A stretch of DNA of 36,135 bases from Candidatus Hebobacterum abditum (GCA_029821875.1 JALGXW010000037.1:1-36135), one strand, 5' to 3'. Positions 27,533 through 32,059 are shown, counted from the stretch's first letter. Translations and numbers: made by a program. The notes: generated by a model not told the origin, from the letters alone.

Positions 27533-27622
27533 TGTCCCGATAATGGCAAACCCGTCGAAAGACGGGGACGCAAAGCCATGGGTCTAAGGCTCTCCGTAGC
27601 TAAGACTGCCAGGCTGCCGAAG
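27533..27622 (+). ncRNA. cyclic-di-GMP-I (GEMM-I) riboswitch aptamer
   Basis: The conserved core is read directly: GGCAAACC, a stem CCCGTC/GACGGG capped by a GAAA tetraloop (GNRA, which docks in the family), then GGGACGCAAAGCC, GGGTCTAA, and a closing TGCCG. These are the highly conserved bases of the class I c-di-GMP riboswitch. The third helix (GGTCT with AGACT, and GCT with AGC) is formed by 27581-27610. Ligand binding and sign of control are inferred from the family. Confidence 0.93.
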
Positions 27623-27748
27623 GAGATCTGGTTGAATCTCCCCCCCTTGACAGGGGGTGGCGGCCCGGAGAGCCGATCGACCTGGTCTTCTTTCTGCTGT
27701 GTTCGCAAGGAACAAGACCCGTTTCGAGAGGCCGTGAGGCTCTCCGGG
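27588..27748 (+). promoter_or_regulatory. expression platform: mutually exclusive antiterminator pairing
   Basis: Segment 27664-27674 (CCCGGAGAGCC) can pair over 11 perfect bases with 27738-27748, the 3' inner arm of the terminator. Its 9 bases 27666-27674 (CGGAGAGCC) can instead pair perfectly with 27588-27596 (GGCTCTCCG) inside the aptamer's third helix. The two pairings exclude each other. If c-di-GMP stabilises the aptamer helix, the segment is freed to break the terminator, giving transcription on; without ligand the segment is held by the aptamer and the terminator forms. The pairings are seen; the direction is inference. Confidence 0.7.
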
Positions 27749-27764
27749 ACGGGTCTTTCTCGTT
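27714..27764 (+). terminator. intrinsic terminator of the riboswitch leader
   Basis: AAGACCCGT (27714-27722) pairs with ACGGGTCTT (27749-27757); an inner stem GAGAG-CC/GG-CTCTC sits inside a GTGA loop. A T-rich tail (TTTCTCGTTT) follows. It lies between the aptamer and the first pilin-like gene, so read-through is needed for that gene to be made. Confidence 0.85.
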
Positions 27765-27830: not shown

Positions 27831-28343
27831 ATGAGGACACGGCGGAGAGCAGCACGCAGCCGTGGGCACGGGCGCGCGACAGCCGCGATGCGCGCTCTGC
27901 TTCTGGCAGCGGGCGCGTCAGTCATTCTCCTTTCGCCGCCGGCCAGCGCTGATTCGGCCAGGCTGACGCTCGACGTCGCCGCGCTCTCCTTCCCGTCTGC
28001 AGATCCGGACGTTGTCCCACAGGTCAGCGCGCTCGAGAATCCTGTGACCGTGGAGGTCACGATCCGGGCCGGGAACCCGTCGATCGCCGATCTGACGGTG
28101 GTCTCTTCGGGGGACCTGCAGTCGGGAGCCGATGTCATCCCGATAGACCGCGTGAGTTGGACGGCGAACGGCGACGGCTTCACGTCGGGCGTGCTGAGCA
28201 AGAACGGCCCACAGCCCGTCGGGCAGTGGTTCGGGAAGAGAATCGATGCGGTTGGCACTCTTTGGTTTCAACTGGAGAACTCGTGGGACTACGCCGCGGG
28301 TTTCTATAGCCAGACCGTTGTCTATACGTTGACGTCGTACTGA
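27831..28343 (+). CDS. pilin-like secreted subunit 1 of the c-di-GMP-controlled locus
   Basis: A 170-residue exported beta-sandwich protein. A long basic leader (about 17 residues, RTRRRAARSRGHGR) precedes a hydrophobic core (about 21-35) and a cleavage site after PPASA40. The mature part, about 130 residues, has alternating beta strands and ends YSQTVVYTLTSY, much like the C-terminal strand of spore-coat-U/Csu-type pilins. No cysteine, unlike type 1 pilins. It is a paralogue of the next gene: both share ADPDVV, GDLxSGxD and SWDY..G.YSQTVVYTLT. ATG 27831 follows AGGTGG; GTG 27777 upstream is inferior. It is the first gene after the riboswitch terminator. Confidence 0.75.
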   Translation: MRTRRRAARSRGHGRATAAMRALLLAAGASVILLSPPASADSARLTLDVAALSFPSADPDVVPQVSALENPVTVEVTIRAGNPSIADLTVVSSGDLQSGADVIPIDRVSWTANGDGFTSGVLSKNGPQPVGQWFGKRIDAVGTLWFQLENSWDYAAGFYSQTVVYTLTSY

Positions 28344-28380
28344 GTCAGATCAAACGATCTCTCATAGGGGAGACTGAACA

Positions 28381-28887
28381 ATGAGAAGCTTGATAGGTGT
28401 GCTGATAGTTGCGGTCGCCTTGGCTGCACTCGTATGCGCGGGGCACCCCGCGTGGGCGGCGACCGATCAACAGACGTTGACGATCAACGCCACCGTGTCG
28501 GCGAAGGCGAAGCTGACGCTTGGCGTGGCGGCCATCAACTTCGGGGACGCCGATCCGGATGTCGTGGCGTCGATAGCGGCCGGCGAGAACCCAGTTTCCG
28601 TGACGGTGAAGGCGCAGACTGCCGCTGCCTCCGCGGTGACGCTGACCGTGCAGGCCAACGGCGATCTCGATTCCGGCACTGACACGATCGGCATCACAAA
28701 CGTCACATGGACCGCGACAGGAGCCGGCTTCGTGGGCGGCACGATGGATACCGTGGCCCAGTCGGCTGGTTCCTGGACCGGCCCCGGCCGGAGAGATGGC
28801 ACGTTTTCCTACTGGCTGGCCAATAGCTGGGACTACCCGCCAGGGAGTTACTCGCAGACGGTCGTCTACACGCTGACCGCACCGTAG
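28381..28887 (+). CDS. pilin-like secreted subunit 2
   Basis: A 168-residue secreted protein with a standard signal peptide (about 1-26, cleavage after HPAWA). The mature protein of about 142 residues begins TDQQTLTINATVSAKAKLTL, is rich in Thr, Ala and Val, and ends YSQTVVYTLTAP, a strand that matches the end of subunit 1. Free N-terminal residues before the domain could serve as the donor strand used in chaperone-usher fibres; the sequence allows this but does not show it. Start follows GGGGAG, 37 bases after subunit 1. It is followed by two stem-loops before the chaperone gene. Confidence 0.75.
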   Translation: MRSLIGVLIVAVALAALVCAGHPAWAATDQQTLTINATVSAKAKLTLGVAAINFGDADPDVVASIAAGENPVSVTVKAQTAAASAVTLTVQANGDLDSGTDTIGITNVTWTATGAGFVGGTMDTVAQSAGSWTGPGRRDGTFSYWLANSWDYPPGSYSQTVVYTLTAP

Positions 28888-28910
28888 CCACCCCCGTGGC
28901 TGACGTCCTA

Positions 28911-28950
28911 TGTGCCGGGGGCGGAGCGAGGTAGCACCGCCTCCGGCACA
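28911..28950 (+). repeat. long stem-loop between pilin and assembly genes
   Basis: TGTGCCGG pairs with CCGGCACA and GGCGG with CCGCC, a stem of about 14 base pairs (one G-T) with a 12-base loop and no T-tract. A smaller hairpin (AGCCAC/GTGGCT, 28886-28901) overlaps the stop of subunit 2. Such structures often stabilise an upstream mRNA or damp downstream expression, which would give more subunits than assembly proteins. Confidence 0.6.
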
Positions 28951-28997
28951 AGGGCGGCTGAGTCCCCAGCGGATGGGGGATCAGGAGGCTCGAGAGA

Positions 28998-29837
28998 ATG
29001 TTCAGAGTCATGACTGGTTACATAGCGAGTGGTCTCGTGTTGGGCGCCATGCTCGTCCTGTCCGGCGGCACGGCGGCTGCAGGAGTGTGCTCCTTCGAGG
29101 TGTCTCCTCTGACTGTGGAGATACAGATCGAGCCCGGCCGTGCCCACACGGGCACCATCGACGTTACGAACACCGGCGAAGAGGCCGAGCACATCCATGT
29201 CTACTCCCAGGACTGGACCCTGAAGCCAGATGGCGTGGTGGTGTTTCTTCCTGCCGGCAAGACCCTGGGATCGGCCAGCACCTGGGTGCAGCTCATGCCC
29301 AGCGAACTCGACCTCGAGCCGGGTCAGACACAGCGGGTGCGGTACACGATCCGCGTTCCGACCCAGGCCTCTGGCGAGGCGCGTACTGCAGTGATATTCG
29401 AGGCCGAGCCAAGGGAGCTGTCGATGCCCGGAGGCCCATCCCGCCTGGTCCCGCGGATCGGCACGATCGTATACGTCCAGTGCGGGCCGGAGGATCCTGC
29501 GCGGGTACGCGCGGTCCGGTTCGATGTTGACCGGAGCGGGGGCACACTGGACGTCGAGAACCTTGGAACCTCCCATCTCCGCTTCAAGGGATACCTGGAG
29601 GTCAGGGATCAGCGAGGTGCGCTCGTGCGGCGCCATGACCTGAATCCATTCGTCGTTCTGCCTGCCCCCTTCAACCGCCACAGTAGGCGACTCGGCCCAG
29701 AGATCCTGTCTGGATTGCCCGCCGGGCGCTATCAGATCACGGCCATCCTCGACCATGGCGGAGATGCTCTGCTCGGGGCCCGGATTGAGACCGAACTCGG
29801 GCCGGAGCCGCCGATTCAGGTGGCCTGTGAGCCATGA
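28998..29837 (+). CDS. PapD-like periplasmic chaperone
   Basis: A 279-residue exported protein, signal peptide about 1-28 (ends GTAAAG), then two beta-sandwich domains. The first resembles the pilus chaperone N-domain: FEVSPLTVEIQIEPG, a GTIDVTNTGEEAEHIHV edge strand, and the pattern VQLMPSELDLEPGQTQRVRYTIRVP before GEARTAVIFEAEP. The second domain (about 165-279) is a diverged C-domain (LDVENLGTSHLRFKGYLEV). Canonical Arg/Lys anchor residues cannot be placed with certainty. AGGAGG lies 9 bases before the ATG, and ATGA joins it to the usher-like gene. By position it should chaperone the two upstream subunits. Confidence 0.75.
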   Translation: MFRVMTGYIASGLVLGAMLVLSGGTAAAGVCSFEVSPLTVEIQIEPGRAHTGTIDVTNTGEEAEHIHVYSQDWTLKPDGVVVFLPAGKTLGSASTWVQLMPSELDLEPGQTQRVRYTIRVPTQASGEARTAVIFEAEPRELSMPGGPSRLVPRIGTIVYVQCGPEDPARVRAVRFDVDRSGGTLDVENLGTSHLRFKGYLEVRDQRGALVRRHDLNPFVVLPAPFNRHSRRLGPEILSGLPAGRYQITAILDHGGDALLGARIETELGPEPPIQVACEP

Positions 29838-32059
29838 TGTCTCGGGCCGCAGGCACAGCTCTCGGGGTGCTGTTTCTCGCCTGCGTCGGACTGCCTGCAC
29901 TATCCCATGAGGCGATCCCGGAGCGACGGCCGGCCCAGGAGCAAGCATTCAAGCTGCCGGAGCCGCGCGACCTCGGCGACGGCCCGAGATTCCCACTTTC
30001 TGAGCTGGGGGCCCGGCTCGGCATCATCGTCACCGTTGTCGACGAGAACGTCCACATCATCCGCCGCGACGGGAGCGAACTCAGGCTGAAGGCGTCCACA
30101 CCCGGCGAGAGGCCCCTGGAACTGGGGAAGGCAGAGGTCCTGGTCAGCAGTGCCGACGTCTGGGCTCGCGCTAAGGATGTGCCGCGACTGCTAGGACTGC
30201 CGGGAACACTGGATGCTGACGCACGAGAGATGACGGTGAGCCTGCTGCAGGACGAGGCGCAGCCGGTGGAAACCTTCCTGGTGGCGAAGCCGGTGGTCCT
30301 TTCAGCTCCTCGGAGGCGCGGGCAGACCGCGCGAGCAAGACGGCCGCGCCCCGACAGCCGCTCGGGCGGGGACAGCTCCGGCCTAGTTACCGAGGTGATG
30401 ACCGGCGAGACAAGCCTCGGCGTTTCGCAGTTGTCCCTCCTCAACAGCCCGGGCATGACCGGCGTCTACCAGCAGGTAACCGGGCCCGCCTCCTCGGATG
30501 CCCGCCGCACCAGTCGGGACCTCGACCCGGAGTCACCGCTCCGGCACACGGTGGCCCAGTTCTCAATGGAGGTGCACGAAGAGGACCGAGTCTACGCCGC
30601 GGGAGACGTGTTCGATCCCCTCTGCGGGACGGCCACCGGCTTCGAGATGCGCACCGCGGTGAACGAGGATGCCTGGGTTGGCGCCGCGGTCCTTGTGCCC
30701 AATGATTCCGTGCGAGAAGATGTGGAAGGTCAGGTCTCCCTGCGAGCCGCGGCCCCAGTCGGGCCGCACGTGAGCACAGATCTGGCGGTCTCGCTGGATG
30801 GTTCGTACAGCCTCTCAGGTCAGTGGCGGCGAGGCAGCACCGCGCTTCGCTCCTCCATCCTCGACCGCGCTGACCTCTTTCGGCGCGACCTCTCAGTCGA
30901 GCATCAGATCGCCCGATCGGTCAGAGGGTATGCCCGCTCCTCCGAACTGCAAGGCCTGTACGGGGCGCGTGCCGATCTCCTGGGTGCGGAATGGCGACTC
31001 GGGAAGGCGCGTCTGGCGCTCGAGCGGACGCGGGGGATCTCTGGCGACGACCTCTGGGGCACCGACGCCGTCTCCATGTCTCTCCTCCGGGGCCGCTCCG
31101 CCAGCACCGTTAGGTACCTCGTGCCGCGCAACGGGGACGGCAGATCCGGGCTCGAATGGTTCGTCAGCCGATTTCATCCCTCTGGCAGGCAGGTCTTCTT
31201 CAGCTCCTCGGCCCCAAGCACTGGATCGGCCTCGACCGACCGCACCTATCGCGTCGGGACATCATGGCCAGTTGGGCAGGGCCTGCGGCTGCGCGCCGCT
31301 CTGGGATGGGACAGCGAGGAGCTGCGCCCGGAGGCTAAGATGGAGTGGCGTCCCGCGCGGGACAAGGTCATCACACTCCAGTATGGGCCGTTCGACATGG
31401 ACGCATCGGGCGGCGCCCTCGACACCGCCATCGTGCTCCAGGCCAGCATGGCCTTCGGCGGCACGGCCCGCGGGCCGCGGGGCAGCGGTCGCGTAGTGGG
31501 TCAGGTGAGAGATGACAGCGGTCAAGGAGTCGGGGACGTGGCCGTCGTGCTCGGAGAAGTGGCCGAGACCTTCACGCGACCCGATGGGACCTTTGAGTTC
31601 CGCCGCGTCAAGCCCGGCCGCCAGGTCGTCAAGATCGACGGCAACAGGCTCCACGCCGACCTCGGCGGCCAGTTGCGACCCCGCGTCGTGTTCGTGAGCG
31701 AGAACGGGAGCGAGCGCGCCGACTTCGTCGTGACTCGGCTCTGTCGCATATCGGGCGGCGTCTATGTCCGATCGGCCGATGACGCACTGGGCGAGCCATT
31801 GCCGGATGCCGTCGTGCAGCTCAGCGACGGCCGCCTCGCGAGAACGAACAGCCAGGGGCGCTACAGCTTCGTCGGCCTTGACGCGGACCGCTACACCGTT
31901 TCGCTCGCCTCCAGCATGGATGTCTCGACCCTGCGCCCGCTGGCGCCAACATCCTGGTCGTTCCGACTCCAGCCGGGCGACGAGGCAGACGGCGCCGACT
32001 TCACGTTCGAGCGCAGAGAGCGGCCGGTCATCTTTGGCGTGCTGACGAGCGGGGAGTGA
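29834..32059 (+). CDS. usher-like outer-membrane protein with terminal carboxypeptidase-regulatory-like domains
   Basis: A 741-residue exported protein. After a signal peptide (about 1-24, ends PALSH), residues about 45-140 form a small beta module like the copper amine oxidase N domain (FPLSELGARLGIIVTVVDENVHIIRRDG). A basic linker (about 158-178) leads to about 340 residues (215-553) of alternating amphipathic strands such as RTYRVGTSWPVGQGLRLRAALG, as expected of an outer-membrane barrel. Two carboxypeptidase regulatory-like domains follow (about 554-600 and 640-693). Classical ushers are larger, have a plug and use other N/C domains; here similarity is architectural only. It overlaps the chaperone gene by ATGA, ending the locus. 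Confidence 0.65.
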   Translation: MMSRAAGTALGVLFLACVGLPALSHEAIPERRPAQEQAFKLPEPRDLGDGPRFPLSELGARLGIIVTVVDENVHIIRRDGSELRLKASTPGERPLELGKAEVLVSSADVWARAKDVPRLLGLPGTLDADAREMTVSLLQDEAQPVETFLVAKPVVLSAPRRRGQTARARRPRPDSRSGGDSSGLVTEVMTGETSLGVSQLSLLNSPGMTGVYQQVTGPASSDARRTSRDLDPESPLRHTVAQFSMEVHEEDRVYAAGDVFDPLCGTATGFEMRTAVNEDAWVGAAVLVPNDSVREDVEGQVSLRAAAPVGPHVSTDLAVSLDGSYSLSGQWRRGSTALRSSILDRADLFRRDLSVEHQIARSVRGYARSSELQGLYGARADLLGAEWRLGKARLALERTRGISGDDLWGTDAVSMSLLRGRSASTVRYLVPRNGDGRSGLEWFVSRFHPSGRQVFFSSSAPSTGSASTDRTYRVGTSWPVGQGLRLRAALGWDSEELRPEAKMEWRPARDKVITLQYGPFDMDASGGALDTAIVLQASMAFGGTARGPRGSGRVVGQVRDDSGQGVGDVAVVLGEVAETFTRPDGTFEFRRVKPGRQVVKIDGNRLHADLGGQLRPRVVFVSENGSERADFVVTRLCRISGGVYVRSADDALGEPLPDAVVQLSDGRLARTNSQGRYSFVGLDADRYTVSLASSMDVSTLRPLAPTSWSFRLQPGDEADGADFTFERRERPVIFGVLTSGE

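Follow-up and report, generated by a model that had tools for sequence, protein, structure and literature searches.

Proteobacteria are the main known source of chaperone-usher pili, the archaic ones occurring in Cyanobacteria and Deinococcus-Thermus as well (PMC4654587). In the WxL/WxLIP system, WxLIP has been predicted to complete the fold of WxL by an inserted strand, without fibres being formed (PMC10599100). The locus described here lies in a single contig of 36,135 nucleotides, the whole of which was analysed and is referred to as the window, from the 4.3-Mb genome of Candidatus Hebobacterum abditum. The organism belongs to the phylum Armatimonadota (Ca. Hebobacteria), the class Hebobacteria having been described previously (PMC10290634), and its lineage is uncultured and comes from sediment. 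The nearest named relative is Candidatus Hebobacteria isolate M3-38_Bin_440, the usher-like protein of which is 92% identical. An Omp85 protein is encoded in the genome and the cell therefore has an outer membrane. With a probability of roughly two in three, we consider the locus to be a chaperone-usher-like operon for the assembly of a surface fibre.

The order of elements in the window is riboswitch, strong terminator hairpin, subunit 1, subunit 2, chaperone and usher-like gene (Table 1). A preliminary description, made from the sequence alone, had proposed a chaperone-usher-like locus with this gene order and an ATGA overlap of its last two genes, and this was borne out, with the overlap occurring at 29834–29837. 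The two exported subunit paralogues which it had reported are both present and have the C-terminal YSQTVVYTLT in common. The four-gene order is identical in the close relative G001 and in the genome G004, the usher-like protein of which is 47% identical. Comparison with G001 gave dN/dS values of 0.18–0.33, and the genes are therefore under constraint (purifying selection).

Table 1. Features of the operon and its leader, with positions counted from the first nucleotide of the window.
Feature	Position	Strand	Basis
c-di-GMP-I-GGC riboswitch aptamer	27536–27622	+	Rfam RF03167, 79.5 bits
Intrinsic terminator hairpin, then T-rich tract (likely expression platform)	27714–27757	+	RNA fold
Subunit 1, exported, without N-terminal extension (candidate tip or cap)	27831–28343	+	ORF; alternative GTG start 27777
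Subunit 2, exported, N-terminal extension QQTLTINATVSAKA (candidate major, polymerising)	28381–28887	+	
Periplasmic chaperone, two Ig-like domains, WxLIP/PapD-like	28998–29837	+	hhalign, AF2, Foldseek
Usher-like outer-membrane protein (candidate barrel), 741 aa	29834–32059	+	
N-terminal domain of usher-like protein (copper-amine-oxidase-N-like in homologues)	29951–30268	+	PF07833 in homologues
Candidate beta-barrel region, residues 186–546	30389–31471	+	Amphipathic beta periodicity
First CarboxypepD_reg domain, residues ~552–635	31487–31738	+	PF13620
Second CarboxypepD_reg-like domain, residues ~636–735	31739–32038	+	PF13620/PF13715

Analysis of the chaperone by hhalign gave a score of 85.7 (E about 1e-11; best shuffle 21.3) against a DUF916 (WxLIP) protein of Cellulosimicrobium, as expected of a DUF916/WxLIP protein, and PF06030 (DUF916) was matched in the window chaperone at E = 6e-4, below the cut-off. 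A profile of the Armatimonadota-Deinococcus chaperones scored 49.3 (E = 1e-6) against EcpB/EcpE of E. coli, with controls of 19.4 for the best column shuffle and 11.6 for the reversed profile. The same profile aligned to the FimC family over its full length, co-linearly and across 204 columns, with a score of 33.3 (best shuffle 19.6); as a yardstick, the accepted homologues FimC family and EcpB/EcpE score 32.0 against each other. Pfam gave no match to PapD_N or PapD_C in the chaperone. The AlphaFold2 model of the protein is all-beta and of low confidence (pLDDT 51.7), the second domain reaching 70–86. A Foldseek search of 350,542 chains with this low-confidence model placed WxLIP (9i25/9i1y) and the class-5 chaperone CfaA (4ncd/6k73) in the top 12, with the WxLIP crystal structures ranking 3rd, 7th, and 9th. 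The profile scores, the all-beta model and the presence of CfaA among the top matches are those of a two-domain, PapD-like Ig chaperone, which is what the preliminary description had recognised; the closest relative of the protein, the Gram-positive WxLIP/DUF916 proteins, had been missed there. Judged by profile comparison, the chaperone is homologous to DUF916/WxLIP and, more weakly, to EcpB/EcpE. Because of the hhalign scores and the Foldseek matches, it is placed in the Ig-like group containing WxLIP and the pilus chaperones, and nearer to WxLIP. The C-terminus of the window chaperone is a hydrophilic tail with no membrane helix, whereas the DUF916 protein of Cellulosimicrobium has such a helix.

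For the usher-like protein, Pfam analysis of the window's protein and 13 homologues identified no PF00577 usher, PapC_N, PapC_C or TcfC plug domain, with FimD, YehB, and EcpC all being matched as positive controls; weak matches to CooC_C occurred in 4 of the 13 homologues. The paired carboxypeptidase-regulatory-like domains of the preliminary description were recovered, with PF13620 matching in two stretches (E = 3e-14). These domains also have weak S-layer and SdrD-like matches. The amine-oxidase-N-like module which it had placed in this protein was found in part, as PF07833 (Cu_amine_oxidN1) matches 3 of 13 family members (best 3.5e-6) and has no Pfam match in the window's protein; the N-terminal domain is absent from some homologues. 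The preliminary description went too far in treating such a C-terminus as absent from all known systems, since the domain following the barrel of EcpC, the alternative usher of K-12, has a CarboxypepD_reg match (E = 1.2e-4), and the Deinococcus proteins have the same tail.

A barrel in the usher-like protein is plausible. The middle 360 residues contain 20 amphipathic beta segments, compared to 12.7 ± 2.3 in shuffles, with FimD being similar. The outer-membrane barrel of the preliminary description, at residues ~186–546, is left unconfirmed by AlphaFold2, the model from two near-identical input sequences being unusable (pLDDT 28). The profile comparison with FimD, which had been put forward beforehand as a check, did not support the claim. 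The hhalign score to FimD was 37.4, under the 41.1 of reversed FimD, and the barrel region by itself scored 32.5 against 31.8 reversed. As these scores were no better than those of reversed FimD, the barrel alignment was dropped as evidence; the Armatimonadota and Deinococcus barrels likewise gave no alignment (16.8 vs. 17.1). Since the barrel has no detectable homology to FimD and its structure prediction was unusable, the term usher is employed in a functional sense, a role that we infer from gene position, domain order and C-terminal domains, the beta pattern and the partner genes.

To compare subunits between loci, the residues from the predicted signal cleavage site (assigned by a simple rule and not by SignalP) to the single invariant Phe were counted in 24 of them, and two classes were found. 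The short class has 13–16 residues, together with two ambiguous cases at 20–21, and the long class has 27–39, giving an N-terminal extension of about 14–18 residues. The surplus stretch of the long subunits has alternating hydrophobic residues, such as TLTINATV and TTFTANV. Each complete locus of the window's type encodes a single short subunit and one or more long ones. In the window it is subunit 1 that is short, in locus L074 the second of two, and in most other loci the short subunit is encoded 3' of the usher-like gene. A donor-strand fibre that has a tip or cap would be expected to have this composition, one extension-less subunit and one or more extension-bearing subunits. The putative donor extension, C-terminal strand and extension-less end subunit of chaperone-usher systems are thus recognisable as sequence patterns, and these predicted classes are the strongest indication of a fibre within the loci themselves. 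Identity to G001 is 80% for subunit 1 and 94% for subunit 2; subunit 1 evolves faster, and its conservation, the lowest, would fit an exposed tip protein.

None of the 24 subunits matched a Pfam pilin family or the WxL Pfam domain, and sequence comparison with solved pilins in the PDB gave no match. The "Pam pilus" pilin of NCBIfam was considered and set aside, having matched 2 of the 24 subunits below significance (E = 0.06–0.11); no paper on a "Pam pilus" was found. Comparison with the actinobacterial neighbor of the DUF916 protein gave just a C-terminal match of 21 residues and was also rejected.

A single-sequence search of genome contigs matched the sister genome alone. Separate profile searches with the usher-like protein and the chaperone were conducted on 291 Armatimonadota genomes, and the two profiles repeatedly matched neighboring genes. 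Strong usher-like matches (E < 1e-60) were found in 13 genomes. The chaperone gene lies immediately upstream in all ten strong loci with a contig extending in that direction, which come from at least seven families; the three remaining contigs stop short of the chaperone position. The usual order is subunit(s), chaperone and usher-like gene, frequently with one more subunit after, so that the subunit-chaperone-usher order is conserved. Two further loci (L082 and L083) were found via the chaperone. Canonical PF00577 ushers above the cut-off occur in 1 of the 291 genomes.

Full-length homologues of the chaperone are also encoded on Deinococcus plasmids (E = 4e-17, 29% identity), examples being the loci of NZ_CP140100, NZ_CP026517 and D. 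deserti NC_012529. The order there is subunit, chaperone, (subunit) and CarboxypepD_reg protein, nearly all annotated as "hypothetical." Co-occurrence of the genes elsewhere had been set beforehand as a test, and it was found in related Armatimonadota genomes and on these plasmids. Profile alignment gave E = 1e-43 for the chaperones of the two groups and E = 1.4e-13 for the C-terminal regions of their usher-like proteins; a search of the plasmids with the window's own usher-like protein gave no match. Usher-like proteins of the Deinococcus type, whose N-terminal domains are Ig-like, are found in the Armatimonadota too (L083).

The c-di-GMP-I riboswitch ahead of the operon has an aptamer scoring above the RF03167 gathering score of 59, together with an expression platform. 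A riboswitch of this kind, through which the preliminary description had proposed control of the locus, was found in three family members (the window genome, G001 and G004, with usher identity as low as 47%), and the terminator hairpin is kept in all three leaders. A search of the loci of other families found no riboswitch; its control of the operon is kept within the window's own family only. When the leader was folded, the terminator hairpin formed whether the aptamer was present or not. Six such riboswitches, that of the operon among them, occur in the genome, the others being upstream of genes for a GGDEF/HD-GYP-type protein, secreted SLH-type proteins, a CheY-like protein and of pseudopilin-like genes, as assigned by eye from the downstream ORFs.

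We infer that a fibre is formed, and its assembly could proceed as follows. Subunits would arrive in the periplasm with their Ig fold incomplete and would receive a strand from the chaperone, the candidate G1 strand being at about residues 147–161. The chaperone would hand them over to the usher-like barrel, where the N-terminal extension of the next subunit would displace the chaperone strand. The extension-less subunit would be located at the tip, or would cap an end, with the fibre growing outward. Binding of c-di-GMP would govern read-through of the terminator, turning the operon on or off, and such a switch would tie the fibre to sessile life.

That DUF916/WxLIP is the best homologue of the chaperone, that its crystal structures rank so high in Foldseek and that strand insertion without fibres is predicted for WxLIP (PMC10599100) would all suit a diderm WxL/WxLIP complex. 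In this reading, a WxL-like subunit would be kept stable by its WxLIP-like partner, and the barrel protein would serve to export an adhesin complex that does not polymerise, or to anchor it on the outer membrane. However, separate extension-bearing and extension-less subunits in each locus would be needless in a one-to-one complex, the chaperone has no C-terminal membrane helix, the subunits have no WxL Pfam match, and a candidate barrel-like outer-membrane partner adjoins in every locus, so that we regard this explanation as unlikely. That the locus came in by horizontal transfer and is a genuine alternative or archaic chaperone-usher system that has diverged strongly is quite improbable: the usher and plug domains are missing, PF00577 ushers are above the cut-off in just 1 of the 291 Armatimonadota genomes and the chaperone is nearer to WxLIP than to EcpB/EcpE, despite the EcpB/EcpE profile match, the match to the C-terminal domain of EcpC and the weak CooC_C matches. 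The spread over many Armatimonadota families and Deinococcus suggests instead an old vertical presence. It is also conceivable that the locus encodes a beta-rich surface or envelope-stress module (an S-layer or adhesin and its anchor) with no strand exchange, its resemblance to chaperone-usher systems being convergence of common beta folds. The weak S-layer and SdrD-like matches, and the unusable AlphaFold2 model of the barrel, fit such a module, for which the chances are nonetheless very slight given an operon order conserved across two phyla, chaperone homology far above shuffles and the paired subunit classes.

The operon is real and conserved, resembles fibre-assembly loci and belongs to a class that has a name in neither Pfam nor NCBIfam; our search for a description of this class, which covered the open-access literature and not subscription papers, returned none. 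It represents a branch of fibre-building machines that is widespread in the Armatimonadota and Deinococcus and apparently has no name. The usher domains having been tested and none found, the best reading is that of a distinct chaperone-usher-like class, one that is related to the defined chaperone-usher families and lies outside them. More tentatively, and at slightly less than even odds, these loci may represent a third, unnamed lineage of donor-strand fibre assembly in the Armatimonadota and Deinococcota, with a chaperone that bridges WxLIP and the PapD-like chaperones evolutionarily and an usher-like barrel that either arose separately or diverged to an extreme degree and that works without the plug and the classical N-domain.

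Of greatest interest is the chaperone, a link between the WxLIP module of Gram-positives and the pilus chaperones of Gram-negative bacteria. A class of this kind, conserved in Armatimonadota and Deinococcus and unannotated so far, would broaden the chaperone-usher pathway and would suggest that its chaperone was derived from, or had a common ancestor with, the Gram-positive WxLIP/WxL surface module, and the origin of the pathway becomes testable. The locus would also offer a possible minimal usher without a plug, and a putative c-di-GMP-switched fibre in an uncultured sediment lineage.

When compared to known systems, the WxL/WxLIP (DUF916-DUF3324) clusters of Bacillota and Actinomycetota share with the locus a homologous chaperone, an adjoining small exported beta subunit and strand donation into a partner, which is predicted there (PMC10599100). 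The window chaperone differs in lacking a membrane anchor, and the locus adds an usher-like outer-membrane protein (a candidate barrel) and has extension-bearing and extension-less subunit classes with no WxL Pfam match. The alternative chaperone-usher systems ECP (EcpA/EcpB/EcpC/EcpE) and CFA/I (CfaA) have the same subunit-chaperone-usher order, and ECP has in addition the chaperone profile match and a CarboxypepD_reg-like domain behind the EcpC barrel, one in EcpC and two in the window protein. Here, however, there is no TcfC plug, CooC_C is not above threshold, the subunit sequences are unrelated and the N-terminal usher domain is different. With the classical FimC/FimD system the locus shares a two-domain Ig-like chaperone and extension-bearing subunits with an end subunit, but it has no PF00577, PapC_N or PapC_C, and barrel similarity is no higher than the level of the reversed control. 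The unnamed Deinococcus loci, although differing in a larger first subunit and in two Ig-like N-terminal domains on the usher-like protein, have a homologous chaperone, the same gene order and the CarboxypepD_reg tail.

In the leader of the window operon, nucleotides 27664–27676 (CCCGGAGAGCC) are perfectly complementary to part of the terminator (27738–27748, GGCUCUCCGGG), with which they could pair; judged from sequence, this segment is a possible antiterminator. One A-U of the pairing is changed to G-U in the sister genome G001. Five more c-di-GMP-I-GGC riboswitches were found in the window's own genome (contigs C22, C56, C71, C82, and C97), and near these lie genes, assigned by eye, for a GGDEF/HD-GYP-type protein, SLH-type secreted proteins and a CheY-like protein, as well as pseudopilin-like genes.

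The in-frame TGA in the usher-like gene of G004, a relative whose genome is 55% complete, represents either an assembly error or a decaying copy. G234 is the only Armatimonadota genome with a PF00577 usher above threshold and, as the new-type locus is also present, it holds two systems. Two of the tandem extension-bearing subunits of G094 are nearly identical, suggesting recent duplication of the major subunit.

Coordinates of the features discussed
Feature	Position	Remark
G004 usher-like gene	L013:4722-6941	single in-frame TGA at codon 538
Above-threshold PF00577 usher	G234:C105:2982-4418	
Subunit tandem array, G094	L079:6729-8960	extension-bearing subunits, n=3
Exported small protein and DUF916 protein	L130:4076-5930	Cellulosimicrobium plasmid

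Homologous loci on Deinococcus plasmids (L127, L128, and L129) are annotated as 'hypothetical', and the database label of the D. deserti chaperone, 'FimB/Mfa2 family fimbrial subunit', is probably a mis-annotation. In Cellulosimicrobium, the DUF916 protein, which has a C-terminal membrane helix, directly follows a small exported protein ending in PGSYSSTLTLTL; this is a monoderm subunit-chaperone pair without an usher.
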